A stretch of DNA of 64,000 nucleotides from Athalassotoga saccharophila (lineage in GTDB: Bacteria > Thermotogota > Thermotogae > Mesoaciditogales > Mesoaciditogaceae). The DNA is taken from NCBI RefSeq assembly GCF_009936215.1, contig NZ_AP019551.1, positions 1,822,708 to 1,886,707 on the forward strand, read 5' to 3'. Below the pieces are notes generated by a model. That model was not told the DNA's origin and made no database searches. It saw only the letters and a program-made list of their open reading frames with translations. The position numbers were made by a program, and so were the translations under genes. Shown here one piece after another: positions 40,455-56,544 of this stretch (positions are counted from its first letter, which is position 1; each line of letters opens with the position of its first letter).

Positions 40455-40455
40455 T

Positions 40456-40483
40456 AAAAAGCCCGATTTTATCGGGCTTTTTT
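40456..40483. terminator. Bidirectional terminator after polC
   Basis: AAAAAGCCCGA / TCGGGCTTTTTT stem of 11 bp with a 5-base loop, between the convergent polC and secreted-protein genes. T tracts are present in both directions. Confidence 0.9.
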
Positions 40484-40488
40484 GTCAT

Positions 40489-40852
40489 TCAATAGCCGCA
40501 ATTTGGTATTATGGTAAATTGAAATGTAATCACGATTTTTCCCGGCGCGACCCACGATTCTATGCTTTTAGAAGCAAATATATCGAGTTCTCCTGAATAT
40601 TGATCTGAATCTTTTGGCTGTAATGTCAGTACATTCTCATCGTAATTATCGCTGTATTTGAGTATCATACCGTTTGGAAGACCTGGCGGATTTATTCCGG
40701 ATGTAAGACTGCCTCCATTAACACCTGTTGAAACGGTAACTGTTATTGTTGACATATTTGATTGGACAGCAAGTTTTGCAAGTAAGACCCTATCAGTATT
40801 ATAAGCATTTGTTAGAACATTCCCTGTTACACCAGAAAAAGAAGCATTGTAA
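40489..40852 (-). pseudogene. C-terminal half of a small secreted protein gene split by an IS element
   Basis: Codes for about 120 residues (from YNASFSGVTGN to FTIIPNCGY). It matches the C-terminal half of the intact paralogue at 49744: LAKLAVQSNMSTITVTV against LAELSVKSNMSTIGVTV, and a shared YSDNY and FTI-P-N ending. Its upstream part lies at 42697-43244 beyond the IS. Removing the IS and one 6-bp duplication rejoins the frame as ATATSYNASFSG, the exact family motif. Without its signal peptide this half should not be exported. Confidence 0.85.
40847..40852. repeat. Left target-site duplication (TTGTAA)
   Basis: TTGTAA directly precedes the IS left end and is repeated directly after the right end at 42697-42702. 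Confidence 0.88.
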
Positions 40853-42696: not shown

Positions 42697-42702
42697 TTGT
42701 AA
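42697..42702. repeat. Right target-site duplication (TTGTAA)
   Basis: Direct copy of the TTGTAA at 40847-40852, immediately after the GTGGG right end of the IS. Confidence 0.88.
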
Positions 42703-43244
42703 GATGTTGCGGTTGCTATATAGTTTTGATTTTTATATACGATTGTCAGATCTATAAAATATTTCCATACATTGGAGTCTTGTCCTGGATTTCCAGTTGC
42801 TAAAGTTATCACTTCATTGTAAGTTCCTGATGATGTTCCGACAGGTATATATATGGATATAAAAATGTTATTTGAAGTATTCGACGTGACTATTTTACTG
42901 ACAAAATTTTGACTGCTGGCCGTTGTCCACCAATTAAAATTACCGGGCAAAGCGTTATTAGGTAGTGTCAACTGAATCGTGGTCGTTCCAGATTTTGAAA
43001 TATTTACCGTTAAATAATAAGTACCCTTATCATGTATATTATTGTCTAAAACACTCACGCTTGATCCAAGATCCAAGAAATAATTCGTATTCGTAGAACC
43101 GAGTAATTGATTTTGCAAATTTTGACCAGGCGAATTGGAGTTGAAACTCTTTTGAATTTCTTCCTGTGCGTTAAGCCAGTTATCCCCAAAAGATAATATC
43201 GCCATAAGACTTATTAAGACCAAAAGTGCATATATTTTTCTCAA
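42697..43244 (-). pseudogene. N-terminal half of the IS-split secreted protein gene
   Basis: From TTG 43244 (GGGGTGG lies 6 bases upstream) a signal peptide RKIYALLVLISLMAILSFG leads into a beta-rich Ig-like module (GTYYLTVNISKSGTTTIQLTLP and IPVGTSSGTYNEVITLATGN), then YIATATSY, where the IS interrupts it. The remaining frame reads into the IS and stops after PHFAHL. This protein was the only family member with an extra N-terminal module of about 150 residues. The truncated product could still be exported. Confidence 0.82.
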
Positions 43245-43246
43245 AC

Positions 43247-44758
43247 TCAACCACCCCAATTCATTTCAAACTTGAAAGTGTTTGAAATCGGAGAATAAAG
43301 TACTCTCAAAATTTCTCCATAGTAAACTAAACCAATCGAACCGTAAAGATCGAAATTGTTACTTCCCGTCAATTGAATGTGATTGTATGAGAATTCTCCT
43401 CCCAAAACAAGATTGTCCATTTTGTATTCAAGATTTCCGTTGTATTGAAGATGAAAATTCGCCAGTGACGTTAAAGATGCGCTTACAGTTAAAACGCCAG
43501 AAGAGAGAAAATTCGACTTGAAATCAGGATATTGAACGAGTGCAATCTCTCCTTTGTAATTGTTGACGTTGGACAAATTCGAAAAGATAGGTCCTCCTAT
43601 CAAAAGATATCCCTGAAGTCCTATTGCAACCGGGCTCGATATGCCAACGTATATTCCAGATGGAATATTTTGGCCAGCGCTGATCTTAAGTCCAAAATGA
43701 TCGATATTTCCAAGGGCTTTGATTGTGTTATTATTTCCGTTGTAGTCCATAACAAGATTATATGTCCTTACTTTTGGGCCCATATCCATCAAAGTGAAAA
43801 TAGATGTTGAAGGAGCGCTTCTGACTGTAGAAACCGTAACTATGAAATTGGAATTTCCGCTTCTAAAAGAGGCAACGGCCATTTTATTATCCCCCACTGT
43901 GACCGTTGAATTCGTGTTGATCGTATAGGAAGGAGTACCCTGAACGGTACCCGAACTTACATTCTGCACCGATAGATTAAAATTAAGATTTGCCTGAGTC
44001 GCGCCAATTGAATTGACAAGCACATTCATGCTAAGACTGGAAGAGGGAAGATAATTTGCCTTGAATTGTATATTCTTTCCAGCACCTGCAAGCGCAAAAC
44101 CATTTCCCTCAAATTTCATGTAATTTGAGTATTTCTGAAAAAATTCAAAATTCGTGCTCTTAAATTGCCCCGGCATGATATAACTCGAGTAAAAGTCATT
44201 TTGCCACATGGCGTAATTGCTATTGGACATCGTATAAATGTTGTATACGACATAAACATTCGTTCCCGGAACATCGACCGATTTCACGGTTGACAAAACC
44301 TTTTCGTAAACGCTGTTCGGTCCAAAGAAGAAAAGATAAGGATAAGACTGTGCATACGTTATGTAGTTCGAATAAGGCTGCAAAAAGGCCATGACATTTG
44401 ATGACGAAAGATATTTAAGTTCTATTACACGTTCTGAATAACCGGCCGCTTTCATAGACATGGCAGACATGTTTGTTCCCACGAAGTAAACTCCATCGTA
44501 ATTGAAATAAAACAACCCGTATCCTTTACATATAGTTGAAAGTGCCTGATCCAAAGTCACATTGTTGAGATTCATCGTGATGTTGCCGCTTACAGTTGGA
44601 TCGACGACTATCGAAACGTTGAATGCCATCGATACATCTTGAAAAGCACTTTGAAGACTCTCCTGACTGAAAACGAAAGACGATGTCATGCCAGACGCGT
44701 AAGCCAAAACGGCAACGGAAATTAAAAGTGCAAGGGAAATCAGGATGATCTTTTTCAT
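43247..44758 (-). CDS. Divergent secretin-like protein with C-terminal extension
   Basis: 503 residues from ATG 44758 (GGGG 6 bases upstream). A signal peptide is followed by an STN domain (FSQESLQSAFQDVSMAFNVSIVVDP then NNVTLDQALSTICKGYGLF), an N1-like domain and a region parallel to the next protein (VYVVYNIYTMSNSNYAMWQNDF against IVVQVNVLEMDKSVLDSWNMSL). The secretin signature VPLLGDIPLIGxLF is missing, and about 170 extra residues of beta structure end in KFEMNWGG. I read it as a paralogue of the adjacent secretin that lost the channel lip and gained a new domain. It may be a co-assembling or adaptor subunit. Confidence 0.7.
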   Translation of the reverse strand: MKKIILISLALLISVAVLAYASGMTSSFVFSQESLQSAFQDVSMAFNVSIVVDPTVSGNITMNLNNVTLDQALSTICKGYGLFYFNYDGVYFVGTNMSAMSMKAAGYSERVIELKYLSSSNVMAFLQPYSNYITYAQSYPYLFFFGPNSVYEKVLSTVKSVDVPGTNVYVVYNIYTMSNSNYAMWQNDFYSSYIMPGQFKSTNFEFFQKYSNYMKFEGNGFALAGAGKNIQFKANYLPSSSLSMNVLVNSIGATQANLNFNLSVQNVSSGTVQGTPSYTINTNSTVTVGDNKMAVASFRSGNSNFIVTVSTVRSAPSTSIFTLMDMGPKVRTYNLVMDYNGNNNTIKALGNIDHFGLKISAGQNIPSGIYVGISSPVAIGLQGYLLIGGPIFSNLSNVNNYKGEIALVQYPDFKSNFLSSGVLTVSASLTSLANFHLQYNGNLEYKMDNLVLGGEFSYNHIQLTGSNNFDLYGSIGLVYYGEILRVLYSPISNTFKFEMNWGG

Positions 44759-44759
44759 T

Positions 44760-45914
44760 TTAATCCCCTGCCTTTTCAACTGTTATAACCACCACGATCT
44801 CTTTTTCAACTTTTACAACGTTTTGCTGGGTAAAAAGAAAGCCTATCAAAGGTATATCTCCAAGTAATGGTACCTTGGAATTTTGAGTTTGATAAGTCTG
44901 AAAATTGGCCCCTCCAACTGCCACCGTATTACCAGCCTGTGTTGTAAAAGAGGTTGTCAATGTGTTGGTTATCGTGTTTGGTACACCGGAAGAGGTTTGC
45001 TGCTGCGATGCTCCTGTTAAGGTTTCTGTCAAATTCACAAGCACAACGCCTGAGGCAGTTATCGTTGGAGTTACAGAAAGGTTTATCCCTACCGGCACGC
45101 TCAAAGTCTGCTGACCTGTTGATGTTGTATAGAGATAAGTTGTGGTTGTCACTGAATTCACAGTTCCCGTTTGTCCGCTTTGAATTCTGAGTTTGGGATC
45201 TGCAAGCATCTTTATCTCTCCATTTGAGACGAGTGCATTTATATTGGAGAGTATCGAAAGGTTATTTATTATGAATGCTGCGTTTATCGCTCCGTTAAGT
45301 ACGTTGAACGTTGTGCCGTTTGAAGAATTCGACGGCTGCGAATACTGCAAACTCATATTCCAACTGTCGAGGACAGATTTGTCCATTTCGAGCACGTTAA
45401 CCTGTACGACGATGTCTTTGGGAGGAACATCAACTGATTTTATCAAGGATATGATGGATGATTTTATACTGTCAGGCGCACCTATCATGATAAGGTAAGG
45501 AGAGGTGGTCGAAGAAAAGACATAAGGCTGCATGATTGCCGGCAGATAACTGAAAAGCGTCTTCGAATTTATGTATTTCAATTGATACGGTGTCATCTGT
45601 GCGAGGTAAAGAAAACTATTCGTTGCCGGGTTTGGAGTTCCTACGAAATAAACACCAGGCTGGATCTCTTTCCATGCGTATCCTCCCGACATGAGCATAA
45701 GGTTTAGCGCTTGAGAGATGCTCACATTGTTAAGGTTAAGCGTTATAATACCACCTATCGTCGAATCTGTAAGTATCGTTATACCCTCCTGAGTCGCGAG
45801 ATCGTTTAAGGCCTGTGTGAGTGGTTCTTGAAAGAAAGATATAGTTACATTCTGGGCAAAAACGGCAGATATGACTATAAAGATTATAAAAGAAAGCACC
45901 ATGAATTTTTTCAT
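44760..45914 (-). CDS. Compact secretin (type II/IV pilus family outer-membrane channel)
   Basis: 384 residues, much shorter than GspD or PilQ. Signal peptide (KKFMVLSFIIFIVISAVFA), STN domain (VTISFFQEPLTQALNDLATQEGITIL), one N1/KH-like domain (about 85-160), then the secretin core with SGQTGTVNSVTTTTYLY, AGNTVAVGGANFQTY and the hallmark KVPLLGDIPLIGFLFTQ. Secretins form multimeric gated outer-membrane channels. It follows the Ig-like protein by 14 bases and is part of the sigma-54 operon from 48102. No secretion ATPase or platform protein is in the window. Confidence 0.87.
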   Translation of the reverse strand: MKKFMVLSFIIFIVISAVFAQNVTISFFQEPLTQALNDLATQEGITILTDSTIGGIITLNLNNVSISQALNLMLMSGGYAWKEIQPGVYFVGTPNPATNSFLYLAQMTPYQLKYINSKTLFSYLPAIMQPYVFSSTTSPYLIMIGAPDSIKSSIISLIKSVDVPPKDIVVQVNVLEMDKSVLDSWNMSLQYSQPSNSSNGTTFNVLNGAINAAFIINNLSILSNINALVSNGEIKMLADPKLRIQSGQTGTVNSVTTTTYLYTTSTGQQTLSVPVGINLSVTPTITASGVVLVNLTETLTGASQQQTSSGVPNTITNTLTTSFTTQAGNTVAVGGANFQTYQTQNSKVPLLGDIPLIGFLFTQQNVVKVEKEIVVVITVEKAGD

Positions 45915-45928
45915 TCTATCCCCTCTTC

Positions 45929-47488
45929 TCAGTTAATCTTTTGCTGTACAGAAACGGTTGCCGTATTTTTGAAAGTTTGATCATTGAAGTAGTACATGAC
46001 GAGTCTTACAGTATAGCCCTTTGAAACCTTGAACGGTAATGTCATAGTTCTGTAAACCGTTGCACCTGAGTACAAAATACCGATATTCAATATCGCAGGT
46101 GAACTATTAACAGCATGATCTGTGGCGTCCGTTATGAAGATCTCACCAGCGTAATAAGTCATCGAATTTCCGGTATTTTTAACGTCTACTGATATATCAA
46201 CATTCGATCCGTCAGGAGTAACTTTAAAGTTTTCAAGGGCAATAGATTTAGTCAACTTTCCAACGGACAAGATGATTGGGATCTCCACCGTTGTTGCCTC
46301 TCCTCCAGAGACAGATTCATTTAACTTTAAAAGCGCATAATATTCCCCGCTTGCAGGAGCAGTCGAAGGACCTTTTCCGGCAATGACGACATTTCTGATC
46401 GAATAAGGATACAAAATCATAGGATCGGGATAAACCTTTAAATTCCCAAACAAATTCTGATCGAGTGGCGCCTCCACCACAAGACCTTGATAAGATTGTT
46501 TCATTCCGACCAATTCGAATTTAACATTCGAAATCCTGTAGTCAAGACTTTGAATGTTGAAATTCGCATTAAGAAAGGCATTCGGAACCTGAAACGGTAT
46601 GTTTATTATATATTTATCCGTACTCAAAAACGGGAATGGGCTTATCTTCTGATCTGTAACCTTCATGCTGAAACTTTGGCTTGTCATGATGCCATTTCCA
46701 AGATTTGCGGAAAGCAAAATTCTGTAATCCCCATTTGGAACAATTCTGTTGATTGGAATCCATATCGTTCTTGTTATGCCCGGAAAGGCAAGCGTTTCCT
46801 GCCTTGCGAGGCTTGTAGCGTAAACAATCTGATGAAGTGTATCTGATACAAGTCTAAACTGACCATCGAGTCCTATAACGGAATTTCCAGTGTTGGTGTA
46901 ATCCATCTCGAGAACGTAAGGTATACCAGAATTTTTAAGGCCGCTTGGGAAATTGGACGGTAAATTTTCTGAAGTGGTGCTGTAGAGTTTAACTCCTTTG
47001 AACTGCGCCTGATAGGTCATAGGCATGTTATCTATTTTAAGAGTTATAAGGACTGCCGTATTCACCCCGACTATTATGTTGCCAGTTTGATTGGGTGCAG
47101 TGTTATTTATAAGTATCGTTGCAAAGTATTCTCCCGACACGTTAGATGGAATGGTTATCGTGAAAGGCACCTGAATAGTTTGACCGGCACTGATTACAGG
47201 AGCCGTTGATGGAGTCGTTATCCAAGGTGCGCATGAATGGGTGTAAGATGCAAAGGTTGTCATACTGTAATTTCCATTCGAATCAATGTAAAAATCTCTA
47301 AAGGCAATAACGGCTGTCAATTGCACATTAGATTGATTTGTTATCGATGTATTAAAAGTTATTTGACTTCCAGGAGCACCATGCAAATTCTCTACAAGAG
47401 GCGTAACGTAAAGACCTCCTATGGCAAAAGAGATAAAAGGGACAAAAAACAAAACAATGAAAAACCCCAAAATATGCTTTAAATTCAC
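45929..47488 (-). CDS. Large secreted protein with Ig-like (NEW3/chaperone-like) repeats
   Basis: 519 residues from GTG 47488, chosen because AGGAG lies 5 bases upstream. A signal peptide (ILGFFIVLFFVPFISFA) precedes GGLYVTPLVENLHGAPGSQITFNTSITNQSN, which looks like the first strand set of PapD-chaperone or DUF916-type domains. Further Ig-like units follow: IPSNVSGEYFATILINN, LEMDYTNTGNSVIGL and VDISVDVKNTGNSMTYYAG. No C-terminal anchor is present. It may hold or escort the small secreted proteins or line the periplasm for the secretin; function is inference. Confidence 0.65.
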   Translation of the reverse strand: MNLKHILGFFIVLFFVPFISFAIGGLYVTPLVENLHGAPGSQITFNTSITNQSNVQLTAVIAFRDFYIDSNGNYSMTTFASYTHSCAPWITTPSTAPVISAGQTIQVPFTITIPSNVSGEYFATILINNTAPNQTGNIIVGVNTAVLITLKIDNMPMTYQAQFKGVKLYSTTSENLPSNFPSGLKNSGIPYVLEMDYTNTGNSVIGLDGQFRLVSDTLHQIVYATSLARQETLAFPGITRTIWIPINRIVPNGDYRILLSANLGNGIMTSQSFSMKVTDQKISPFPFLSTDKYIINIPFQVPNAFLNANFNIQSLDYRISNVKFELVGMKQSYQGLVVEAPLDQNLFGNLKVYPDPMILYPYSIRNVVIAGKGPSTAPASGEYYALLKLNESVSGGEATTVEIPIILSVGKLTKSIALENFKVTPDGSNVDISVDVKNTGNSMTYYAGEIFITDATDHAVNSSPAILNIGILYSGATVYRTMTLPFKVSKGYTVRLVMYYFNDQTFKNTATVSVQQKIN

Positions 47489-47517
47489 TTTCTCTCTCCT
47501 CTCATTTATGCTCAAAA

Positions 47518-48102
47518 TTATCTGTTAAAAACTATATTTTGAGTATTTCCGTAATTCGTTATGAATTGGCCAATATTCTCGTAAAGCACCGTAAATTCAA
47601 CCGGAACCGTGTATTGAGATCCCTTAGTCCACTGTTCGACCTGAGAATTAAGCGCTTCGACGTTAACGTTCAGCGTGTAATAACCATGATCGCTTTTGGA
47701 TAAAGTCGAAACAACGACAAAATAAATGTTGTTTAAATAGTAAGCCGAATTGTAAATCTGGCCATTACTTTGTATATCCGAATTTGACATAAAACTCATC
47801 ACATTTGATTTATTGACATTTACGTATACAAAGATATTTTGAAAGTTCAATTTTATGTTGAGCGTTGCAAGTGTTACGAGGAAATCTGTGTTTATGTTCA
47901 TCGCAGGTATTATCGGATCAAAAGCAACCGGATGAACAGAGGTGCTAAGCGCTGTTGTCTGAGCCTCCATGCATGGCATTACTTCCACAACAGAGGTAAC
48001 GCTTAAGGACGATTTATAACATTCCTCTGCCGTAATTGTGCTATTTGCAAAGATTACAGATGAAGTAAAAATGATCATAATCAATACTATTATATTTTTC
48101 AT
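47518..48102 (-). CDS. Small secreted protein of the local paralogous family
   Basis: 194 residues from ATG 48102 with AAGGAGCG upstream. A signal peptide (KNIIVLIMIIFTSSVIFA) precedes EECYKSSLSVTSVVEV, which aligns with ATCQQASLSVNSMIGI of the 49039 and 49744 proteins. Residues LVTLATLNIKLNFQNIFVYVNV match their LLAELSVKSNMSTIGVTV strand pair. It is first behind a sigma-54-type promoter whose predicted start lies about 26 bases upstream. Confidence 0.65.
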   Translation of the reverse strand: MKNIIVLIMIIFTSSVIFANSTITAEECYKSSLSVTSVVEVMPCMEAQTTALSTSVHPVAFDPIIPAMNINTDFLVTLATLNIKLNFQNIFVYVNVNKSNVMSFMSNSDIQSNGQIYNSAYYLNNIYFVVVSTLSKSDHGYYTLNVNVEALNSQVEQWTKGSQYTVPVEFTVLYENIGQFITNYGNTQNIVFNR

Positions 48103-48139
48103 GATTCGCTCCTTACACAATTTCTTATCAACAAACATG

Positions 48140-48155
48140 AGCAGTATTCATGCCA
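48140..48155 (-). promoter_or_regulatory. Sigma-54-type promoter (-24/-12) for the secretin operon
   Basis: Minus strand TGGCATGAATACTGCT: the GG at -24 and GC at -12 have the required spacing, with one change from the TTGC consensus. It lies 38-53 bases before ATG 48102, and paired half-sites lie about 80-120 bases further upstream. Confidence 0.75.
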
Positions 48156-48198
48156 AAATCTTAATTTTTTTTGACCACGATTTTTCAACCATACAAGC

Positions 48199-48221
48199 AA
48201 AAAATTCCTGAGATTCAGGAA
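48199..48221 (-). terminator. Terminator of the 48288 gene
   Basis: TTCCTGA / TCAGGAA 7-bp stem with a 3-base loop, followed on the minus strand by TTTTTT. Confidence 0.72.
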
Positions 48222-48234
48222 CGAATAAATCATC

Positions 48235-48275
48235 TTGGGAACTAATGATGCAAAATATGTCTCTATAGTTCCCAA
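48235..48275. promoter_or_regulatory. Paired activator half-sites upstream of the secretin-operon promoter
   Basis: TTGGGAACT (48235-48243) and AGTTCCCAA (48267-48275) form perfect 9-bp inverted arms separated by 23 bases, about 80-120 bases upstream of the -24 element. The same half-site recurs at 50549 and 50601. The position is that of an enhancer site for a sigma-54 activator. Confidence 0.72.
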
Positions 48276-48287
48276 ATGAATTTTTAT

Positions 48288-48851
48288 TCAATAATAATTA
48301 TGTGGAATTATCACAAATGTAAAGGCGAGGTTGTCATTCTGATCAAATTGTAAGGCTTTTGTAGAGGCAACGTAGAGATAACCACTGTGCCCGGTCTTAC
48401 CCGTGCTAAATGGAAGATCGAGAATCGATGGAGGATTGTCCGTCCTTATGTCATATACAGAATTTCCTGAAATGTTGGGGTAATAGTAAGATATATCCCT
48501 GATATTTGATTGATTCGAGATAGAAATAGAAATTCCTATAACAGAGGTCGCATCAGATTCAACGTTAAGACCGGCAAGGACAACAAAATTTTTTATGGAA
48601 TCAAAGCAATTTCCATTGTAAAAAATATCAATCAATATTTTATTGAATATATCAGGTAAGGTTGAATTAAAAACAGTTGCAGTCGCCAGAAATCCCTGAT
48701 CCATATAAAAATTTGGATCGTAAAGATGAGGAACTTCATTTTCAGTCTTAAAAGTAAGTTTTCCTCCTTCAAAAACCGGCCCCATGTTATCTGCCAAAAC
48801 AATCATAGAAAGTGCAATCAAAGATATTATAATCACGAGAATTCTTTTCAT
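48288..48851 (-). CDS. Small secreted protein, divergent family member
   Basis: 187 residues. Signal peptide (KRILVIIISLIALSMIVLA), then MDQGFLATATVFNSTL, which corresponds to IEQGYVATATSYNASF of the paralogues. A central strand pair FVVLAGLNVESDATSVIGISISIS and a C-terminal LAFTFVIIPHNYY complete the pattern. It ends in an aromatic residue, as do most of the family. A weak sigma-54-like site lies just upstream. Confidence 0.62.
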   Translation of the reverse strand: MKRILVIIISLIALSMIVLADNMGPVFEGGKLTFKTENEVPHLYDPNFYMDQGFLATATVFNSTLPDIFNKILIDIFYNGNCFDSIKNFVVLAGLNVESDATSVIGISISISNQSNIRDISYYYPNISGNSVYDIRTDNPPSILDLPFSTGKTGHSGYLYVASTKALQFDQNDNLAFTFVIIPHNYY

Positions 48852-48876
48852 ATCAATCCCCCCAAAGTTTACATCT

Positions 48877-48912
48877 CGCTAAGATTATCCCAAGAATGTG
48901 TTTAAACATTCT
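48877..48912 (-). promoter_or_regulatory. Weak sigma-54-like site and adjacent inverted repeat
   Basis: TGGGATAATCTTAGCG (48892-48877) keeps GG-N10-GC spacing but differs from consensus at several positions. AGAATGT / ACATTCT arms (48893-48912) adjoin it. Either a weak promoter of the 48288 gene or chance. Confidence 0.3.
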
Positions 48913-48995
48913 GAAAAGATCAAGAAATATAAATTAAATTATTTGCACGGTTTATTACAAAAATGAAAATAAGGATGAAAACGATGAGGAAAAAT

Positions 48996-49020
48996 AAAAA
49001 GGACACTTCAGTGTCCTTTT
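48996..49020 (-). terminator. Terminator after the 49039 gene
   Basis: GGACAC / GTGTCC stem with a TTCA loop, flanked by AAAAA and TTTT, 18 bases beyond the stop. Confidence 0.85.
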
Positions 49021-49038
49021 AAATTTTAACTTTAATTC

Positions 49039-49692
49039 TCAGAATGTGTTCTGAGGACTTATCAAAAAAGTTGTTCTTATATAATAATCGCCAGGCTTCA
49101 CGAACTCTCCCCAGTGTGTATCATACGTATCAAGAACTACGTCAACTGCACCTACATAATAAGACGAAGTAGGCAATAGATTAACTAAAAAGGTAAGCGC
49201 CTGTGGAGCAGATGAAAAGTTCCCCGTTCCCAAAAGGTTATTACTGGCATTGTTATTATAGAATATATAGTAAGAGGAATAATTCGATAGTAACGACCCA
49301 GATGCGTTGGAGGGTTGTGTTATAGTTATTGTAACATTTATATTTTGAGCATTTGATTTAACTGTCAACTCAGATATCAGGATCCCCTGATTGATTGACA
49401 AACTATCATATTGTGTATACTTACCATTTATCAATCTTTGTGAGATCTCTGGACCAGTTGTACAATTACATATTGGACATGGAGCGCCGCAGAATGAAGC
49501 ATTATAAGACGTAGCAGTGGCCACATAACCTTGCTCAATACCTATCATAGAATTAACAGATAACGAGGCTTGCTGACATGTTGCCCCTTGAGTTGCTTGT
49601 TTGTAATATCCTGCGGTATTTGCCAACGCCATGACACCTAACGCCAACATCGCAATTACAATGAGAATCAAAATCTTCTTCGTTACGATCAT
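49039..49692 (-). CDS. Small secreted protein, duplicate of its upstream neighbour
   Basis: 217 residues. Signal peptide (KKILILIVIAMLALGVMALA), then a segment nearly identical to the 49744 protein (ATCQQASLSVNSMIGIEQG and YVATATSYNASFCGA), then a diverged C-terminal part with an added Cys-rich PCPICNC stretch and GILISELTVKSNAQNINVTI. It ends TTFLISPQNTF. The unchanged N-terminal third with a changed C-terminal part suggests duplication followed by divergence or partial conversion. Three cysteines close to each other could bind metal or form disulfides. GAGGGGAG precedes ATG 49692. Confidence 0.75.
   Translation of the reverse strand: MIVTKKILILIVIAMLALGVMALANTAGYYKQATQGATCQQASLSVNSMIGIEQGYVATATSYNASFCGAPCPICNCTTGPEISQRLINGKYTQYDSLSINQGILISELTVKSNAQNINVTITITQPSNASGSLLSNYSSYYIFYNNNASNNLLGTGNFSSAPQALTFLVNLLPTSSYYVGAVDVVLDTYDTHWGEFVKPGDYYIRTTFLISPQNTF
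49484..49594. repeat. Duplicated segment, copy 1 (111 bp)
   Basis: Identical over 111 bp to 50078-50188. It encodes the conserved mature N-terminal part of the two tandem secreted proteins. Similarity continues with a few changes to the start codon, then stops abruptly on the 3' side of the genes. Confidence 0.88.
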
Positions 49693-49701
49693 CTCCCCTC
49701 T

Positions 49702-49730
49702 AAAAAGATAAGGCGGAGATCCGCCTTATC
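49702..49730 (-). terminator. Terminator/attenuator between the tandem secreted-protein genes
   Basis: GATAAGGCGGA / TCCGCCTTATC stem of 11 bp with a 2-base centre, followed by TTTTT on the minus strand. It lies between two same-strand genes only 51 bases apart, so it may favour the first gene. Confidence 0.82.
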
Positions 49731-49743
49731 TGAGAAGTTTTTA

Positions 49744-50277
49744 TCAGAAATTATTTTTAGGGGTTATTGTGAAAGTTGTTGTTACTTGATAAGTGCCGGC
49801 AGTAACCCATTGAGGAATTGAAGATGGCGCGTAAACTTCAAGAGTACCTTCATAAGGTGTATTTGGGTATCCACCATTTTGAAGAGTTAGACTTCCATTA
49901 GAGTAATTATCGCTATAATTTATGTAAGAACTTAAAGAATAATTTGAGAAGTTGGGGAAATTACTTGAAAATGCAACCGTAACACCTATAGTAGACATAT
50001 TTGATTTAACGCTGAGTTCGGCCAAGAGCACTTGACTATTCAGGCTCACGTAATGTCCTGTCAATGGATTTCCACTTGCGCCGCAGAATGAAGCATTATA
50101 AGACGTAGCAGTGGCCACATAACCTTGCTCAATACCTATCATAGAATTAACAGATAACGAGGCTTGCTGACATGTTGCCCCTTGAGTTACTTGTTCATAA
50201 TATCCTGCGGTATTTGCCAACGCCATAACGCCTAACGCCAACATCGCAATTACACCAAGAATCAGAACTTTTTTCAT
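49744..50277 (-). CDS. Small secreted protein, first gene of the sigma-54-controlled locus
   Basis: 177 residues. Signal peptide (KKVLILGVIAMLALGVMALA), then the family core: ATCQQASLSVNSMIGIEQG, YVATATSYNASFCGA, LLAELSVKSNMSTIGVTV, a YINYSDNYSNGSLTLQ stretch and the ending TTTFTITPKNNF. All beta-rich and small, so a secreted structural subunit is plausible. Not a prepilin, as no G-FxxxE site is present. It has its own consensus sigma-54 promoter, a leader of about 147 nt, GGGAGG before ATG, and a terminator directly after, which suggests the highest expression of the locus. Confidence 0.75.
   Translation of the reverse strand: MKKVLILGVIAMLALGVMALANTAGYYEQVTQGATCQQASLSVNSMIGIEQGYVATATSYNASFCGASGNPLTGHYVSLNSQVLLAELSVKSNMSTIGVTVAFSSNFPNFSNYSLSSYINYSDNYSNGSLTLQNGGYPNTPYEGTLEVYAPSSIPQWVTAGTYQVTTTFTITPKNNF
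50078..50188. repeat. Duplicated segment, copy 2 (111 bp)
   Basis: Identical to 49484-49594; the two copies are 594 bases apart. Confidence 0.88.
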
Positions 50278-50434
50278 ACTTTCTTACCTCCCTTAAAATT
50301 TAGAATTTTCAATTTTGTGAAACTAAAAACCTTCAAAAACACAAAGCGATGTGAAACCCGACTATGAATTCCCTCTCAAATAATTTTTTCCTTACCGACC
50401 TCCTTCAAAAGATTTTTAACCGTCAATTCACATA

Positions 50435-50450
50435 AGCAAGATGTGTGCCA
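50435..50450 (-). promoter_or_regulatory. Consensus sigma-54 promoter for the 49744 gene
   Basis: Minus strand TGGCACACATCTTGCT fits TGGCAyr-N4-TTGCw throughout. The expected start is near 50424. Half-sites at 50549-50609 lie about 100-160 bases upstream. Confidence 0.82.
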
Positions 50451-50547
50451 AAATTTTGGGATGTCAAAGATTTTATTTTTTTGATGATCAACTTATTAAA
50501 GAGTTATTTATTTAAGCCAGATGTTTAAGGGCTTCATGATATCAGAA

Positions 50548-50609
50548 TTTGGGAACTGACAAGACATCTTAGGATCGATTGTTCCAGTAACGTCGCATCC
50601 GTTCCCAAA
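50548..50609. promoter_or_regulatory. Shared activator sites between divergent sigma-54 promoters
   Basis: TTGGGAAC (50549-50556) and GTTCCCAA (50601-50608) are inverted half-sites, with a third partial GTTCC at 50581. They lie between the minus-strand promoter at 50435 and the plus-strand promoter at 50660, at enhancer-like distances from both. The rest of the 446-bp intergenic region holds no gene I can support. Confidence 0.7.
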
Positions 50610-50659
50610 AGTTAAAGAACGTTCAAGATTGAATGGTGTCTTTCCGATTATTCTCTATA

Positions 50660-50675
50660 TGGCATGAAACCTGCT
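50660..50675 (+). promoter_or_regulatory. Sigma-54-type promoter for the degenerate activator gene
   Basis: Plus strand TGGCATGAAACCTGCT keeps the GG/GC spacing and shares TGGCATGAA and CTGCT with the secretin-operon promoter. It lies 48 bases before ATG 50724, which has AGGAGGAATTC as ribosome binding site. Confidence 0.75.
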
Positions 50676-50723
50676 ATCAAAATTCAGAGAAAAATAAGAA
50701 GGACATGACAATAGGAGGAATTC

Positions 50724-51842
50724 ATGAACGCATTTTTTTTAGGCTTCGATTTTAAAGATTCAACAGAGATAAAAATGAGATCGACCGAGATTCACAAAAT
50801 AAACGGACTGTCCCAATTAAAAAAGTTCGAAGAAGAAAAGGTGCTGTGCATAAACGGATCTTCCTCCAGCCCAATCGATGACACAAGTTTGAGATTCATC
50901 GTAGAAGAGGTAAAAAAGGAAAAAACACATCTCGTCGTAATAAGGGATGATAAAAACCACTTCAAAGAATTCGAAAGAGAAATAGCGTTTATAGATGGGC
51001 CAAGCCTTAAACCTAATGAGATAATTGCAAATTTCGTCAGCATGGTAAGGTCTTCAATGCAAAAATTCGTTGGCGAAAGCAGAAAAATAATGGAGTTAAA
51101 GTCAAAGATATTTAACGCCTGCTTTTCGGATAGAAACTTTTTCATAACAGGCGAGACTGGATCTGGAAAGCATTTACTCGCAGAGGTTGTACACAAAGCC
51201 GGTCTAAGATCAGAAGGGCCTTTTGTCCTTATTGGCAGAGATTTAAAATTAGAAAACAATTTCGATCTTGAAAGAGGTCATCTTTTTATAGAGGAGATCG
51301 ATTCCATTACAAAAGATTTTAAAGATAAGATATGCGATCTCGTCAAAAAAAAGAGGTACAGGATCATCTCAGCGACTAAAATTGCCGAAAAAGACGAAGG
51401 CTTTTCGTGTTTCGACGAGGTTGTGCTTAAAATACCTCCTCTGAGGGAAAGAAAGTGTGATATACCAATCTTGACAGACCATTTCATAAAAGATTTCGGA
51501 TATGACTTTCATTTTGAAGAACTTCCATTTGAAATGCAACAAAGATTACTCGAATATACATATCCTGCAAATGTGAAGGAACTAAAGAATATAATAAACG
51601 ATTACATCTTTGGTCCACATCATGAAAGAGATTTCCAAGAGATATTCATATCTAATTTTATATCAAACACGATTTTTGAATTGATGAACAAAACCCCGGG
51701 CAATTCAAATTTACTCAAATCGGAGATAGAAAATTACTTCAGGAATGACTCTGTCAAAGAGTTGATCAAAAAATTCAAATGGGAGGAGGGGACTTTTTCA
51801 AATATCTTCGATAGTTACACAAAAAAATTCAAGGATAATTAA
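50724..51842 (+). CDS. Degenerate sigma-54 activator lacking the GAFTGA loop
   Basis: 372 residues. An N-terminal domain of about 110 residues resembles that of the next protein. The AAA+ core keeps Walker A GETGSGKHLLAEVVHKAG, a changed Walker B (HLFIEEIDSI), the arginine-finger region IPPLRERKCDIP and sensor II YPANVKELKN. The segment that should hold ESELFGH...GAFTGA is deleted: it jumps from GRDLKLENNFDLE to the Walker B. The C-terminal Fis-like helices are poor. It probably cannot contact sigma-54 itself, and may modulate its paralogue by hetero-oligomer formation. It sits behind a sigma-54-type promoter. Confidence 0.78.
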   Translation: MNAFFLGFDFKDSTEIKMRSTEIHKINGLSQLKKFEEEKVLCINGSSSSPIDDTSLRFIVEEVKKEKTHLVVIRDDKNHFKEFEREIAFIDGPSLKPNEIIANFVSMVRSSMQKFVGESRKIMELKSKIFNACFSDRNFFITGETGSGKHLLAEVVHKAGLRSEGPFVLIGRDLKLENNFDLERGHLFIEEIDSITKDFKDKICDLVKKKRYRIISATKIAEKDEGFSCFDEVVLKIPPLRERKCDIPILTDHFIKDFGYDFHFEELPFEMQQRLLEYTYPANVKELKNIINDYIFGPHHERDFQEIFISNFISNTIFELMNKTPGNSNLLKSEIENYFRNDSVKELIKKFKWEEGTFSNIFDSYTKKFKDN

Positions 51843-51894
51843 AATTTTCCATCTTCTTAAAAGTGTTTAAATTTAATTTAATACAAAAGAAATA

Positions 51895-51903
51895 TGCTAT
51901 AAT
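51895..51903 (+). promoter_or_regulatory. Extended -10 (sigma-70-like) promoter for the active sigma-54 activator
   Basis: TGC-TATAAT with the hexamer at 51898-51903, about 31 bases before ATG 51935. A clear -35 is not seen. This would give housekeeping expression of the activator, unlike its paralogue. Confidence 0.55.
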
Positions 51904-51934
51904 AATATCCTTTGGCTGCAGGGGGTGAGAAAAG

Positions 51935-53281
51935 ATGGAATTTCTTTTTGTTGGTTTTCCTTCGATAGATCAGATAAAAAAGATAAACACTTCGGATCGC
52001 ATCATTTCGTGCACGGATATAAATAAAATTGATAATTACATTAACGAACAGAGAAGAATAATCTTCGTCAACTCCTCGAGTGATTCCACGATAGATAAAA
52101 CAAAATTGAACAATTTTGTAAAAAGCGTTAAAAAGACCTTTTCGACAAAGATAATCATGATAACAGATGAGACTGAAAAGCAAAACTCTTCCTTTGGAAT
52201 TTTGAAATTGTACAAATCACCATCCGAAAGTAATGAGAAAGTATGCATTGATTTTGGCAAAAAGGTAAGATCGGCTCTCGATTCGATTGTTGGAGAAAGT
52301 TCTCACATCAAAGAGGTAAGAAGAAAGATATTTGACACCATTTTTTCGGATCCACATGTTTTGATATTTGGTGAGACCGGAACTGGCAAAAATCTTCTCG
52401 CCAGTTCAATTCACAAAATAAGTTTAAGGAAAGGTCCGATGATCTCTTTGAACCTTACAACATTGCCAGAATCTCTTCTCGAAAGTGAATTATTCGGTCA
52501 TGCAAAGGGAGCATACACGGGAGCAAGTGTTACAAGGGAAGGACTTATAGGTCAGGCACACACGGGCCATTTCTTTCTCGATGAGATAGGAGAACTGCCG
52601 ATAGAAATTCAAGCGAAGTTGCTCAACGTTATAGAAGATGGCAAGTATTACATGGTTGGAAGTTCTAATGCAAAAGAGATAGACGTAAAGTTCATTTCAG
52701 CAACAAACAGAGATAAAAATTTTTTGAGAAAGGACTTGCTATTCAGGCTTTCGGAAGAAACTATAGAATTGCTTCCTTTAAGAAATAGAAAGGAAGACAT
52801 CCCATATCTTGTAGATTTTTTCCTTAAACAACTTGATTACGATATCACATTCAACGATATGCCAGAAGAGGTAAGATCTAAATTGTTATCTTACAATTAT
52901 CCTGGCAACATTAGAGAACTGCAAAATATAATAAAAAGGTATCTTTCAGGTGGTATACTCGATCTCTCGGCCGATATGTCTTTCCATTTTAATACTCCAA
53001 CCATAAATGCCAACGAATATAAATTCATAGACAATTCTATTCTTGAAATCGTTGAATTGTCTATAAAGAACAGAACGATAATGCCTCTTCTGGAGTTTAA
53101 GGACAAGATTTCCTCGAAATTTGAAAAAGAATATGTAAGTCAAGTTTTAAGAAATTTCAAATGGGACAAACAACTTGTCGCGAATCAACTTGGCATATCT
53201 TACAGATACCTCAACAAATTAATAAAAAAGTATAGCCTCGACAGACGCACGGTAAACAACAAAGAGAAAAACGATCAATAA
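51935..53281 (+). CDS. Sigma-54-dependent transcriptional activator (AAA+, Fis-type HTH)
   Basis: 448 residues. The N-terminal 115 residues lack a phospho-Asp receiver pattern I can recognise. The AAA+ domain is complete: GETGTGKNLLASSIH, ESELFGHAKGAYTGA (the sigma-54 contact loop, GAYTGA variant), HFFLDEIGELP, ATNRD, FRLSEETIELLPLRNRKEDIP and YNYPGNIRELQN. The C-terminus has a Fis-type helix-turn-helix (FKWDKQLVANQLGISYRYLNKLIKKY). It should bind half-sites and open sigma-54 promoters. It is the most likely regulator of the adjacent secretion locus. GGGGGTGAG precedes the ATG. Confidence 0.9.
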   Translation: MEFLFVGFPSIDQIKKINTSDRIISCTDINKIDNYINEQRRIIFVNSSSDSTIDKTKLNNFVKSVKKTFSTKIIMITDETEKQNSSFGILKLYKSPSESNEKVCIDFGKKVRSALDSIVGESSHIKEVRRKIFDTIFSDPHVLIFGETGTGKNLLASSIHKISLRKGPMISLNLTTLPESLLESELFGHAKGAYTGASVTREGLIGQAHTGHFFLDEIGELPIEIQAKLLNVIEDGKYYMVGSSNAKEIDVKFISATNRDKNFLRKDLLFRLSEETIELLPLRNRKEDIPYLVDFFLKQLDYDITFNDMPEEVRSKLLSYNYPGNIRELQNIIKRYLSGGILDLSADMSFHFNTPTINANEYKFIDNSILEIVELSIKNRTIMPLLEFKDKISSKFEKEYVSQVLRNFKWDKQLVANQLGISYRYLNKLIKKYSLDRRTVNNKEKNDQ

Positions 53282-53309
53282 TTTTTTAACCTTTCTCTCT
53301 TCGGCTCGC

Positions 53310-53339
53310 TTGACTCGCCCTTCACTGTTGTGTTATTCT
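53310..53339 (+). promoter_or_regulatory. Probable promoter of the metal ABC transporter
   Basis: TTGACT (53310-53315), 18-base spacer, TATTCT (53334-53339). The palindrome at 53342 would cover the transcription start. Confidence 0.5.
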
Positions 53340-53341
53340 AT

Positions 53342-53364
53342 TTATAGAAAATAATTTTCTATAA
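53342..53364. promoter_or_regulatory. Perfect 23-bp palindrome, probable metalloregulator operator
   Basis: Arms TTATAGAAAAT and ATTTTCTATAA flank one central A. It ends 10 bases before the ATG of the metal-binding-protein gene. Its size and AT-rich dyad suit a Fur/Zur/PerR- or DtxR-type repressor site that would shut the operon when metal is plentiful. Confidence 0.75.
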
Positions 53365-53374
53365 GGGGGAATCT

Positions 53375-54217
53375 ATGAGAATCAAACTTTTGGCGACTTT
53401 AATGGCACTTTTTGCCATTGTTGGGATTTTGGTATTTGGAAAGTTGACTGTAGTTACGACGATACCTCCTCTTGGGTATATGGTCTCAACCATTGGAGGC
53501 AGTGCCGTCGATGTGAGTGTGCTCGAAAAGCCAGGGGATAATCCTCACAATTTCAATCTTACGCCACAGCAGGCACTCTTCATTTCCAAATCAGAGGTCT
53601 TTGTCGATCTCGGACTTGAAGAGGATGCGTGGATAGGCGATAGGGTAAGATCGATAAATCCTTCTTTAAAGGTCATCGATGCCACAAAAGATCTTTCACA
53701 ATTTTTAATAGGAGAACCTGGCGCTTACAATCCACATGTATGGTTAGATGTAAAACTTTACGAGATGATGGCGATCAACGTCTACAGTGCGCTTGTCAAA
53801 TTCGATCCCGCCGATCAAGCGATCTTTTCGAACAACTTTTCTAAATTCATACTTTCTTTGGATCAACTCAACGATCGCATAGTCAAAGACCTTGAGCCGA
53901 TAAAGGGAAAACCATTTATCGCCCAGCATCCGGCATGGGACTATTTTGCCCGTGCCTATGGACTTGGAACTGAGTACTCGCTCGAAAATGATGCTGGTCA
54001 GTCCATAGGGCCAAAAGATTACCAGGCGATCATCGAAGCGATGAAAAAGTACAATATAAAATCTATTATAGGCGATCCGGTTACCTCTTCGAAACTTGCA
54101 AATCAACTGGCCAGTCAAACGGGATCAAAGATTGTGGAGATAAATCCTATCTTCAATTTTAACTATTTCGATCTTATGAATGCCATAGTCAAGGGATTTT
54201 TAGAGGCTTTGAAATGA
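53375..54217 (+). CDS. Metal (Zn/Mn) ABC transporter substrate-binding protein, ZnuA/TroA family
   Basis: 280 residues with a signal peptide (IKLLATLMALFAIVGILVFG). Cluster A-9 features: KLTVVTTIPPLGYMVSTIGG, the ligand loop GDNPHNFNLTP (His), NPHVWLDV (His), IAQHPAWDYFARAYGL (His) and a late IIGDPVTSS (Asp). No His-rich loop typical of ZnuA is present, so Mn or Fe is possible. It binds metal outside the membrane. First gene of a three-gene operon, overlapping the ATPase start by four bases. Confidence 0.9.
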   Translation: MRIKLLATLMALFAIVGILVFGKLTVVTTIPPLGYMVSTIGGSAVDVSVLEKPGDNPHNFNLTPQQALFISKSEVFVDLGLEEDAWIGDRVRSINPSLKVIDATKDLSQFLIGEPGAYNPHVWLDVKLYEMMAINVYSALVKFDPADQAIFSNNFSKFILSLDQLNDRIVKDLEPIKGKPFIAQHPAWDYFARAYGLGTEYSLENDAGQSIGPKDYQAIIEAMKKYNIKSIIGDPVTSSKLANQLASQTGSKIVEINPIFNFNYFDLMNAIVKGFLEALK

Positions 54218-54957
54218 TAAAGGTGAATTCTTTAAGTGTACGGTACGACAACTTCGAGGCACTTTCTATCCTATCTCTCACGATCGAGGATGGAAAGTTT
54301 CACGCCATAATGGGGCCAAATGGAGGTGGAAAGACCACCTTTATAAAGGCCTTGGTCGGATTGTTGCCATATGAGGGAAGGATAGAAATAGACGGGATAG
54401 ATCACAAAAGATACCTTAAAAAGAATTCCATAGGGTACCTTGCCCAGAGAGGATCTCAATTTTCCCAATTTCCAATAACCGTGCTTGAGGTTGTAGAGAT
54501 GGGCAGGTACAGATTCAAAGAACCAGATCATACAAGAAAAAATAAGGCCTTTGAATTTCTTAAGGTATTCGAAATGGAGAATTTCGCATCCAAAAATATA
54601 AACGAATTGAGCGGTGGCCAGCAGCAAAGAGTCCTCATGGCGAGAGCCCTTGCAACTGAGTCGAAAATTCTTATTCTGGACGAGCCTCTGACCGGAATGG
54701 ATCCGAAGGCCCAGTCTTTGTTTTACGATATGATAAAGCGGATAAAGGACGATTTCAAATTAACGATCATAATGTCGAGCCACGATGTTGGATTCATTTC
54801 GGAGTATGCCGACAATATAATCTGTATAAACAGAGAACTTATTCCCCACGATAAATCGGCCAAGGTCTTAACATGTACTGAAGTCTCAAAACTCTATGGT
54901 CCAAAAATAGGGATCGTGGAGCATCATCACCTCCATTCGGAAAAAGACGATGTTTGA
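54214..54957 (+). CDS. Metal ABC transporter ATP-binding protein
   Basis: 247 residues. Walker A GPNGGGKTTFIKAL, Q-loop in YLAQRGSQFSQFP, signature LSGGQQQRVLMARAL, Walker B ILILDEPLTGMD and switch His in IIMSSHDVGF are all present. The C-terminus EHHHLHSEKDD is His-rich and may sense metal. It overlaps the permease gene by eight bases. Confidence 0.94.
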   Translation: MIKVNSLSVRYDNFEALSILSLTIEDGKFHAIMGPNGGGKTTFIKALVGLLPYEGRIEIDGIDHKRYLKKNSIGYLAQRGSQFSQFPITVLEVVEMGRYRFKEPDHTRKNKAFEFLKVFEMENFASKNINELSGGQQQRVLMARALATESKILILDEPLTGMDPKAQSLFYDMIKRIKDDFKLTIIMSSHDVGFISEYADNIICINRELIPHDKSAKVLTCTEVSKLYGPKIGIVEHHHLHSEKDDV

Positions 54958-55786
54958 ATTTTTCACGTTGTTCTTCATACAAAGGGCACTTTTAATAGGT
55001 GCCGTAATAGCCATCGTCTCGGGCTTTATAGGGCCATTCATCCTTTACAGGAAGATGTCTTTCATAGGCGTTGGAATATCTCACGGTACCTTTGCCGGGA
55101 TAGCGCTTGGAATATTGCTTGGAGTCTCTCCACTGCCGGTGGCGATAATCTTTGCCATAGGTCTTGGAATCTTCATAGGTTTTACAAGTAGAACCGGCAA
55201 AATATCCGAAGATGTCTCTATAGGAATACTCTTTTCTTTTGCGATGGCGCTTGGAATCTTTCTCATAAGTCTATCGTCTGGCTATCATACAGACATAATG
55301 GGATATCTTTTTGGAGACATACTCGCCATTTCAAATAACGATCTTTACCTTGCAATTGGAGTTCTTGGAAGCGTTGTATTGTGGTACATACTTAGATCGC
55401 GCCAGATGAAGTACATGACCTTTGATGAAGATTTTGCAAAGATCGCCGGAGTCCCCGTCGGCATAGATTACTACATATTCATGGCTCTTATTTCCCTTGC
55501 GATAGTCGTGATAGTCAATTTCGTTGGGGTAATTCTTGCAAGTTCGATAATAATAGCGCCAGCCGCATCGGCAAAATCTCTTGCGAAGAGATTTTCATCC
55601 ATAGTCATTCTATCTATTGTGCTTGCAGAGGTAACGATCTTTTCGGGAATTATCTTTTCATACAGTCTCAACATCTCTTCAGGCCCGTCGATAGTATTTT
55701 TTGTGACTTTCGTCTTTCTTCTAAGCCTTCTTGCCGGAAAGATAAAGTTCATAAAATATACCAAACGAAATTCAAATTCTGAATGA
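54950..55786 (+). CDS. Metal ABC transporter permease (ZnuB/TroC type)
   Basis: 278 residues, about eight hydrophobic helices. The ABC-3 family segments ALLIGAVIAIVSGFIGPFILYRKMSFIGVGISHGTFAG and VNFVGVILASSIIIAPAASAKSLA are clear. It is the membrane channel of the importer. It ends in a short basic tail; no further operon gene follows before the next promoter at 55859. Confidence 0.93.
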   Translation: MFEFFTLFFIQRALLIGAVIAIVSGFIGPFILYRKMSFIGVGISHGTFAGIALGILLGVSPLPVAIIFAIGLGIFIGFTSRTGKISEDVSIGILFSFAMALGIFLISLSSGYHTDIMGYLFGDILAISNNDLYLAIGVLGSVVLWYILRSRQMKYMTFDEDFAKIAGVPVGIDYYIFMALISLAIVVIVNFVGVILASSIIIAPAASAKSLAKRFSSIVILSIVLAEVTIFSGIIFSYSLNISSGPSIVFFVTFVFLLSLLAGKIKFIKYTKRNSNSE

Positions 55787-55858
55787 TTGCTTCCAAAATA
55801 TTGAACGTAACGGACTATATCCTTCGCTTGAGGTAAATGACTGTTACCACAAAGGGTA

Positions 55859-55887
55859 TTGACTTACTTTCATTTAAGTGATATACT
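55859..55887 (+). promoter_or_regulatory. Strong promoter for the Gly/Arg-rich protein and iron-sulfur cluster
   Basis: TTGACT (55859-55864), 17-base spacer, TATACT (55882-55887). The leader is about 34 nt and includes AAAGAGGTGA. Confidence 0.78.
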
Positions 55888-55927
55888 CTTATATGTGAAG
55901 TCAAATGTTGAAAAGAGGTGAATAACG

Positions 55928-56167
55928 ATGTGGAGAGATGATTTCGATTATTATCCCGGATACGGAAGAGGACGCGGAAGAGGTTTGGGCCTTGGATTTG
56001 GCTATGGTAGAGGATTTGGTTACGGCAGAGGATATGGCCTTGGCTGGTATGGAAGAGGATACATGACAAAGGAAGAACTCAAAGATTTCTATACCTACCA
56101 CAAAAAAAGACTCGAACTCGAACTTGAAGAATTGAACAAGGCCATTCAAGACCTCGACAAAGAATGA
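55928..56167 (+). CDS. Gly/Arg/Tyr-rich small protein (DUF5320-like)
   Basis: 79 residues. Residues 10-45 are repeats of GYGRG/GRGLGLG type and the last 30 residues form a charged helix (KEELKDFYTYHKKRLELELEELNKAIQDLD). Proteins of this build are found beside NifX-like and MinD/ferredoxin genes, as here. The low-complexity half could bind nucleic acid or pack into assemblies. The exact role is unknown. Confidence 0.75.
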   Translation: MWRDDFDYYPGYGRGRGRGLGLGFGYGRGFGYGRGYGLGWYGRGYMTKEELKDFYTYHKKRLELELEELNKAIQDLDKE

Positions 56168-56168
56168 T

Positions 56169-56192
56169 CTAAGGCCGCAAATGCGGCCTTAG
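56169..56192. terminator. Hairpin after the Gly/Arg-rich gene (no T tract)
   Basis: CTAAGGCCGC / GCGGCCTTAG 10-bp stem with a 4-base loop. The lack of a T run suggests partial termination or mRNA processing, allowing read-through to the NifX-like gene. Confidence 0.6.
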
Positions 56193-56217
56193 AGTATTGC
56201 GACATGGAGGGGAAAAA

Positions 56218-56544
56218 ATGAAGATAATGCTTGCCACAGATAGTCCATCTTTAGAAAGCAAGATATCAGATAGATTCGCAAGGACTTCCTACTTTTTGAT
56301 ATATAACCTTGAAAATGGGAATTTTGATGTTATCGATAACTCCTCGATCGGATCTCATGGCGCAGGTCCGAAGGCTGTTCAAATTGCTATGGACAACGAT
56401 GTATCTGCCATAATTTCGGCCATTCCCGGAGAGACGGCCATGGAAGCCGTAAGAGAATCCAAGATCAAAGTTTACGATGGAAGAGGATTAAGTGCAAAAG
56501 ATGCCATAGGAAAGTTTAAAAGTGGAGAACTCAAAGAGATATGA
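56218..56544 (+). CDS. NifX-like dinitrogenase cofactor-domain protein
   Basis: 108 residues from ATG 56218 (GGAGGGG upstream). IMLATDSPSLESKISDRFARTSYFLIY and IGSHGAGPKAVQIAMDNDVSAII match the same family as the protein at 24371. Likely a small carrier or scaffold of iron-sulfur or metal clusters for the ATPases encoded next, with which it overlaps by four bases. Confidence 0.85.
   Translation: MKIMLATDSPSLESKISDRFARTSYFLIYNLENGNFDVIDNSSIGSHGAGPKAVQIAMDNDVSAIISAIPGETAMEAVRESKIKVYDGRGLSAKDAIGKFKSGELKEI

Follow-up and report, generated by a model that had tools for sequence, protein, structure and literature searches.

A putative bidirectional sigma-54 control region with a shared enhancer array at a secretin locus of Athalassotoga saccharophila

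Can one activator, bound at one set of sites, drive a surface-protein gene in one direction and its own operon in the other? The question is raised by a 446-bp intergenic region in the genome of the thermoacidophile Athalassotoga saccharophila NAS-01, which belongs to the order Mesoaciditogales in the phylum Thermotogota (PMC7163026). This genome comprises 2,044,999 bp in three contigs, with a chromosome of 1,957,762 bp. The region lies within a 64-kb window, the whole stretch of DNA analyzed here, and separates minus-strand genes for secreted proteins from a plus-strand operon holding genes of the sigma-54 activator (bEBP) family. A targeted literature search on sigma-54 in this deepest branch of Thermotogota returned little.

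Sigma-54 promoters and the genes they face

A full rpoN gene, whose absence an earlier note on this DNA had named as grounds for abandoning the idea of sigma-54 control, is present once in the genome (RpoN DNA-binding domain, E 9e-48), and rpoN was found in 10 of the 10 genomes of the family. The same note had described two divergent 16-mers with exact -24/-12 spacing, and both were confirmed: TGGCACACATCTTGCT on the minus strand at 50450-50435 (P1) and TGGCATGAAACCTGCT on the plus strand at 50660-50675 (P2). P1 faces the secreted-protein and export genes, with a predicted start at about 50424, and P2 faces the activator operon, with a predicted start at about 50686. A third promoter, P3 (TGGCATGAATACTGCT; minus strand, 48140-48155), was absent from that note; it lies directly 5' of the ribosome-binding site of the gene at 47518-48102, 38 bp 5' of the ATG at 48102, and has a predicted start at about 48129. 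All three carry -24/-12 elements of the TGGCA-N6-TTGC type, in which the GG and the GC are a fixed distance apart.

Exact matches to TGGCAYN5YTGCW number 16 genome-wide, against 4 for a reversed control pattern. When the intergenic region of 446 bp was put through 4000 dinucleotide shuffles, any perfect site of this kind arose in 1 and a divergent pair in 0. Scanned with a matrix, the 64-kb window gave P1 (22.7 bits), P2 (19.8 bits) and P3 (19.1 bits) above the next best match (11.9 bits); this ranking is partly circular, as sites of this family, P1, P2 and P3 among them, went into the matrix, whereas the consensus counts and shuffles are unbiased measures. Weak sigma-70-like matches in the region numbered 19, against 12.3 (sd 3.6) in shuffles, which is about the shuffled rate.

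The promoters are also conserved. In the congener, the P1 counterpart TGGCACGGATGTTGCT occupies the same location, and P2 is identical at 15 of 16 positions while its flanks are 44-46% identical. Overall, identity between window and congener is 81-94% at the promoters and about 50% (46-53%) in the DNA between the elements. P2 is known from two genomes; the other relatives have no sigma-54 promoter pointing at the activator gene. P3 is missing in the congener, which also lacks two secreted-protein genes, so that P1 can there read directly into the apparatus genes.

On the minus strand, P1 is followed by secreted protein 1 (49744-50277; 177 aa, with a signal peptide and a modeled beta-sandwich), its close paralogue secreted protein 2 (49039-49692) and a distant relative, secreted protein 3 (48288-48851). 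Secreted protein 4 (47518-48102) is the first gene 3' of P3, and beyond it on the same strand lie an exported protein of 528 aa (45929-47515; sub-threshold CARDB, NEW3 and WxL-interacting similarity, with a chaperone-like role as a guess), a short secretin with an STN and a secretin domain (44760-45914) and its partner, a second STN-domain protein (43247-44779). The secreted-protein model has low to moderate confidence (pLDDT 62), with a best Foldseek match to FimA (E 5.6e-3) and a VIA Z of 6.6; pilin identity is a lead only, and a common beta-sandwich also fits. Close orthologues of the secretin (>50% identity) were detected in family-f1 genomes and otherwise in a single more distant genome (G019).

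Several further features of the locus were observed. The N-termini of secreted proteins 1 and 2 (49039-50277) are 93% identical over 67 residues, which suggests recent duplication or gene conversion, and the congener lacks a counterpart of the second copy (49039-49692). A transposase gene (41028-42674) splits the final export-operon gene (40489-43259) into a 5' part at 42675-43259 and a 3' part at about 40489-40857; the counterpart of the split gene in the congener is uninterrupted (L071:14043-14996). The predicted P1 transcript has a leader of about 147 nt (50278-50434), and in four relatives (G004-G007) a gene of about 160 aa takes this first place in the operon. A known RNA element in the leader was considered and rejected, as a search of 40000-56500 gave zero Rfam matches.

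Putative enhancer arrays at this locus and at a paralogous locus

Between P1 and P2, the earlier note had pointed to two inverted half-sites, TTGGGAAC (50549-50556) and GTTCCCAA (50601-50608). Both are present, but a view of two half-sites is incomplete, since they are the outermost halves in an array of three sites. This array 1 (50552-50605) consists of three sites of the GGAAC-N4-GTTCC type in exact 20-bp steps. Site A (50552-50565) contributes one strong half, the left, and site C (50592-50605) one strong half, the right; the middle site B (50572-50585; GGATCGATTGTTCC) scores 9/10, one base off a perfect dyad. The array has left halves at 50552 (GGAAC) and 50572 (GGATC) and right halves (GTTCC) at 50581 and 50601. 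The array scores 22/30, a value reached by 0 of 3000 shuffles. From its middle site it is 128 bp to P1 (-128) and 81 bp to P2 (-81). The congener retains the array and both promoters at nearly unchanged distances, with site B identical at 13 of 14 positions. By its sequence, array 1 is the sole strong candidate enhancer between P1 and P2.

A second array (array 2, 48218-48272) precedes P3. It has GGAAC at 48218 and 48238 and GTTCC at 48268 on the plus strand, phased by 20 bp, with centers at -110, -90 and -70 from P3, and it carries the same TTGGGAAC and GTTCCCAA halves. In a phased-triplet scan of the whole window, arrays 1 and 2 ranked first and second. Furthermore, GGAAC-N15-GGAAC has exactly two matches in the 2.04-Mb genome, one in each array. 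In the relatives, this pattern marks the arrays of two genomes (G005 and G006) and otherwise gives scattered single matches at the control rate, so that the weight of the pattern rests on position and not on number. Each of the four relatives G004-G007 has a sigma-54 promoter with a three-site GGAAC-N4/5-GTTCC array upstream of the orthologous operon, and the array centers are near-identical across all four (-112, -92.5 and -73, counted from where the -24 element begins); most of the relatives compared here, the window genome aside, are metagenome bins. Multiple upstream activator sites are common (PMC6615313), and the repeated dyads found here, about 70-150 bp upstream at a distance kept across orthologues, have the form of an enhancer array that the activator is predicted to bind. 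A chance origin of the promoters and the array was rejected on the shuffles, the genome counts and the conservation.

Among the genome's 16 perfect sigma-54 sites, arrays of this kind accompany P1, P2 and P3 alone and are lacking at the others. Exact GGAACN4/5GTTCC has one match in the genome, inside a gene, with no enrichment over the control. A wider regulon elsewhere in this genome was therefore rejected.

The conservation in relatives also bears on whether array 1 serves both promoters. It might serve one only, with P1 as the true target, the activator operon transcribed mainly from a sigma-70 promoter and P2 silent or of little strength; the roles might also be the other way round. The arrays of the four relatives face the export operon alone, the activator gene there has no sigma-54 promoter pointing at it, and in this genus the distance from array to P1 is shifted, being 36 bp longer in the window than in the relatives. 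P2, however, is a near-perfect consensus site, held at 15 of 16 positions between flanks that have diverged, and its 81-bp distance from the array is about one helical turn off the usual -92. We consider service of a single promoter unlikely, and prefer the reading in which array 1 is shared.

The same genome contains a paralogous secretin-pair locus (L077; C1:870-878 kb) that acts as a natural control. Its sigma-54 promoter at 873459 has three sites of the TGGAAAG-N2-CTTTCCA type, again in exact 20-bp steps. The corresponding GGAAAG array of the congener lies at -112/-92/-72, and in other genera the equivalent locus has sites of the GGAAAG type, in most cases beside an activator of a second family. 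The recognition helices of the two activator families read SYRYLNKL and SRRTIDNM. Half-site and recognition helix changed in concert against a constant geometry of three sites in 20-bp steps, and each array type correlates with its own activator family. At the same locus (L077:5900-12846; C1:872-879 kb), a second promoter copy at C1:872202 has the same 16-mer TGGCACGCATCTTGCT and about 35 bp of the upstream sequence, without an array.

An intact activator and its conserved, degenerate paralogue

The earlier note had named a degenerate activator gene as the target on the plus-strand side. That gene comes first in the plus-strand operon, which also contains the intact activator; a terminator-like site was not found between 50724-51842 and 51935-53281. 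The gene at 51935-53281 (plus strand) encodes a sigma-54 activator with a receiver-like N-domain, an AAA+ domain and a Fis-type HTH (PF00158, 2.4e-49; HTH_8, 3.4e-6). Walker A, GAYTGA (a variant of GAFTGA), Walker B, sensor I, the arginine fingers and the HTH were all recognized in the alignment, as expected of a functional bEBP. The first 116 residues are modeled as a five-strand receiver-like domain. A phosphorylatable response regulator was rejected as a description of this protein: the receiver-like fold is predicted, but the N-domain has no Pfam receiver match, and the conserved acidic pocket was not seen in the alignment. A zinc/manganese-type ABC transporter set, assigned by sequence (binding protein, ATPase and permease; 53375-55786), follows in the same direction, 93 bp past the activator gene.

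The first gene of the operon, 50724-51842 (plus strand), is a tandem paralogue of the intact activator. Its product retains the N-domain and Walker A and lacks the GAFTGA segment, the segment with sensor I and the arginine fingers, and any recognizable HTH. The same losses are found in the congener, so that in neither carrier species does the protein have the GAFTGA loop, arginine fingers and HTH of a bEBP. By these features it is a bEBP paralogue and not a functional bEBP; promoter opening should be beyond it, and it probably does not bind the array. The description of the gene as degenerate thus holds for its catalytic and HTH segments, but not in the sense of decay: the frame is open, and dN/dS against the congener is about 0.09, a rough figure given that synonymous sites are near saturation. 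The intact frame and this purifying selection led us to reject a decaying pseudogene. The most constrained part is the N-domain in 50724-51842 and the AAA+ domain in 51935-53281. The simplest reading is that the paralogue would act as a modulatory subunit.

Binding of array 1 by the intact activator is favored because the array type tracks the neighboring activator family and because the activator gene adjoins the array. Another sigma-54 activator might bind instead, such as the paralogue at C1:220692 or the product of some other locus; the genome holds nine PF00158 matches, and proximity is not proof of binding. Yet from genome to genome the array type follows the family of the adjacent activator, with GGAAAG arrays going with the second family, which makes a different activator very unlikely. 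Least plausible, and hardly to be credited, is the idea that the palindromes are LexA-type repressor operators: lexA is present in the genome and the Bacillus LexA box resembles GAAC-N4-GTTC, but in four genomes of the family no such motif precedes lexA even with one mismatch allowed, leading us to reject a Gram-positive-type operator, and the triple 20-bp phasing and fixed distance from the -24 element suit an activator enhancer. The intact activator therefore remains our preferred ligand of the arrays.

A proposed self-activating circuit and its precedents

Collectively, the promoters, the arrays and their phasing, the conservation, rpoN, the domain losses and the purifying selection, all read from sequence, make it likely that sigma-54 control of this region is bidirectional: the intact activator, on a shared array, would fire P1 and P2 and hence its own operon, with P3 served by array 2. 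Up to three dimers of the 51935-53281 protein would bind array 1 and assemble an AAA+ hexamer, as described for Escherichia coli norR-norVW, where three enhancer sites scaffold a NorR hexamer that drives a sigma-54 promoter (PMC2941729). Through DNA looping to either side, the hexamer would remodel RpoN-RNA polymerase at both P1 and P2. P1 would drive the signal-peptide-bearing, perhaps pilin-like, secreted proteins, and P2 the operon of the activator itself. The earlier note had suggested that a single activator could drive the secreted-protein gene and the degenerate activator gene together; as the intact activator is also in the P2 operon, we infer that such joint activation would amount to positive autoregulation, a self-reinforcing circuit whose layout is so far drawn from two genomes. 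Array 2 would do likewise for P3, ahead of the secretin-apparatus genes, with P3 and read-through driving secreted protein 4, the 528-aa protein, the short secretin and the STN partner. The locus would then form one self-activating regulon with three promoters. The degenerate paralogue most likely modulates the intact activator, via mixed oligomers or through its N-domain.

Parts of this arrangement have precedents. As in the norR-norVW region, three sites were found by sequence in a divergent intergenic region next to the activator gene, although hexamer scaffolding is here predicted. Unlike in the NorR system, both divergent promoters look sigma-54 dependent, so that the activator would activate itself; the half-site differs, the N-domain is receiver-like where NorR has a GAF domain, and an inactive paralogue comes first in the operon. 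In Azotobacter vinelandii, divergent sigma-54 promoters share one VnfA1 peak and paralogous activators hetero-oligomerize (PMC9542535). The present region likewise has, by its sequence, divergent sigma-54 promoters, which are predicted to answer to one activator. The A. vinelandii activator, however, is not on one arm of the region and its paralogues are described as functional activators, whereas the paralogue here has lost catalysis and sigma-54 contact. HrpR and HrpS of Pseudomonas syringae, as discussed in the same paper (PMC9542535), are tandem paralogous bEBPs that act together and are both needed; two tandem paralogues are found here too and are predicted to act jointly, but one of them is without GAFTGA, arginine fingers and HTH. 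In its receiver-like N-domain, AAA+ domain and Fis-type HTH, the intact activator resembles activators of the FleQ/NtrC1 type, and the AAA+ model matches both NtrC1 and FleQ; unlike for FleQ, there is no sign of c-di-GMP binding or of a FleN partner. Divergent sigma-54 promoters under one activator (VnfA1) and three-site enhancers (NorR) are thus already known, and what is new is the combination: an array common to target and activator operon, sigma-54 promoters on both sides, and a conserved inactive activator in front.

A bolder and rather doubtful reading is that the pilin-like secreted proteins, short secretin, STN partner and chaperone-like protein form an unrecognized surface-fiber export system of Mesoaciditogales, run as a switch by a self-activating bEBP with a conserved dead ring subunit that carries a sensing N-domain. 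If true, the dead ring subunit would be a new way of tuning a bEBP. In any case, the conserved inactive activator raises the question of what role a subunit can have when it lacks both sigma-54 contact and the catalytic arginines, and the two paralogous loci provide a natural pair for testing the rules that lead from enhancer to hexamer. For the deepest branch of Thermotogota, the findings yield a sigma-54 regulon that is precise and can be tested. They also connect sigma-54 with a secretin and surface-protein locus specific to this lineage, in agreement with the proposal that the cell exterior is under sigma-54 control (PMC3162934).
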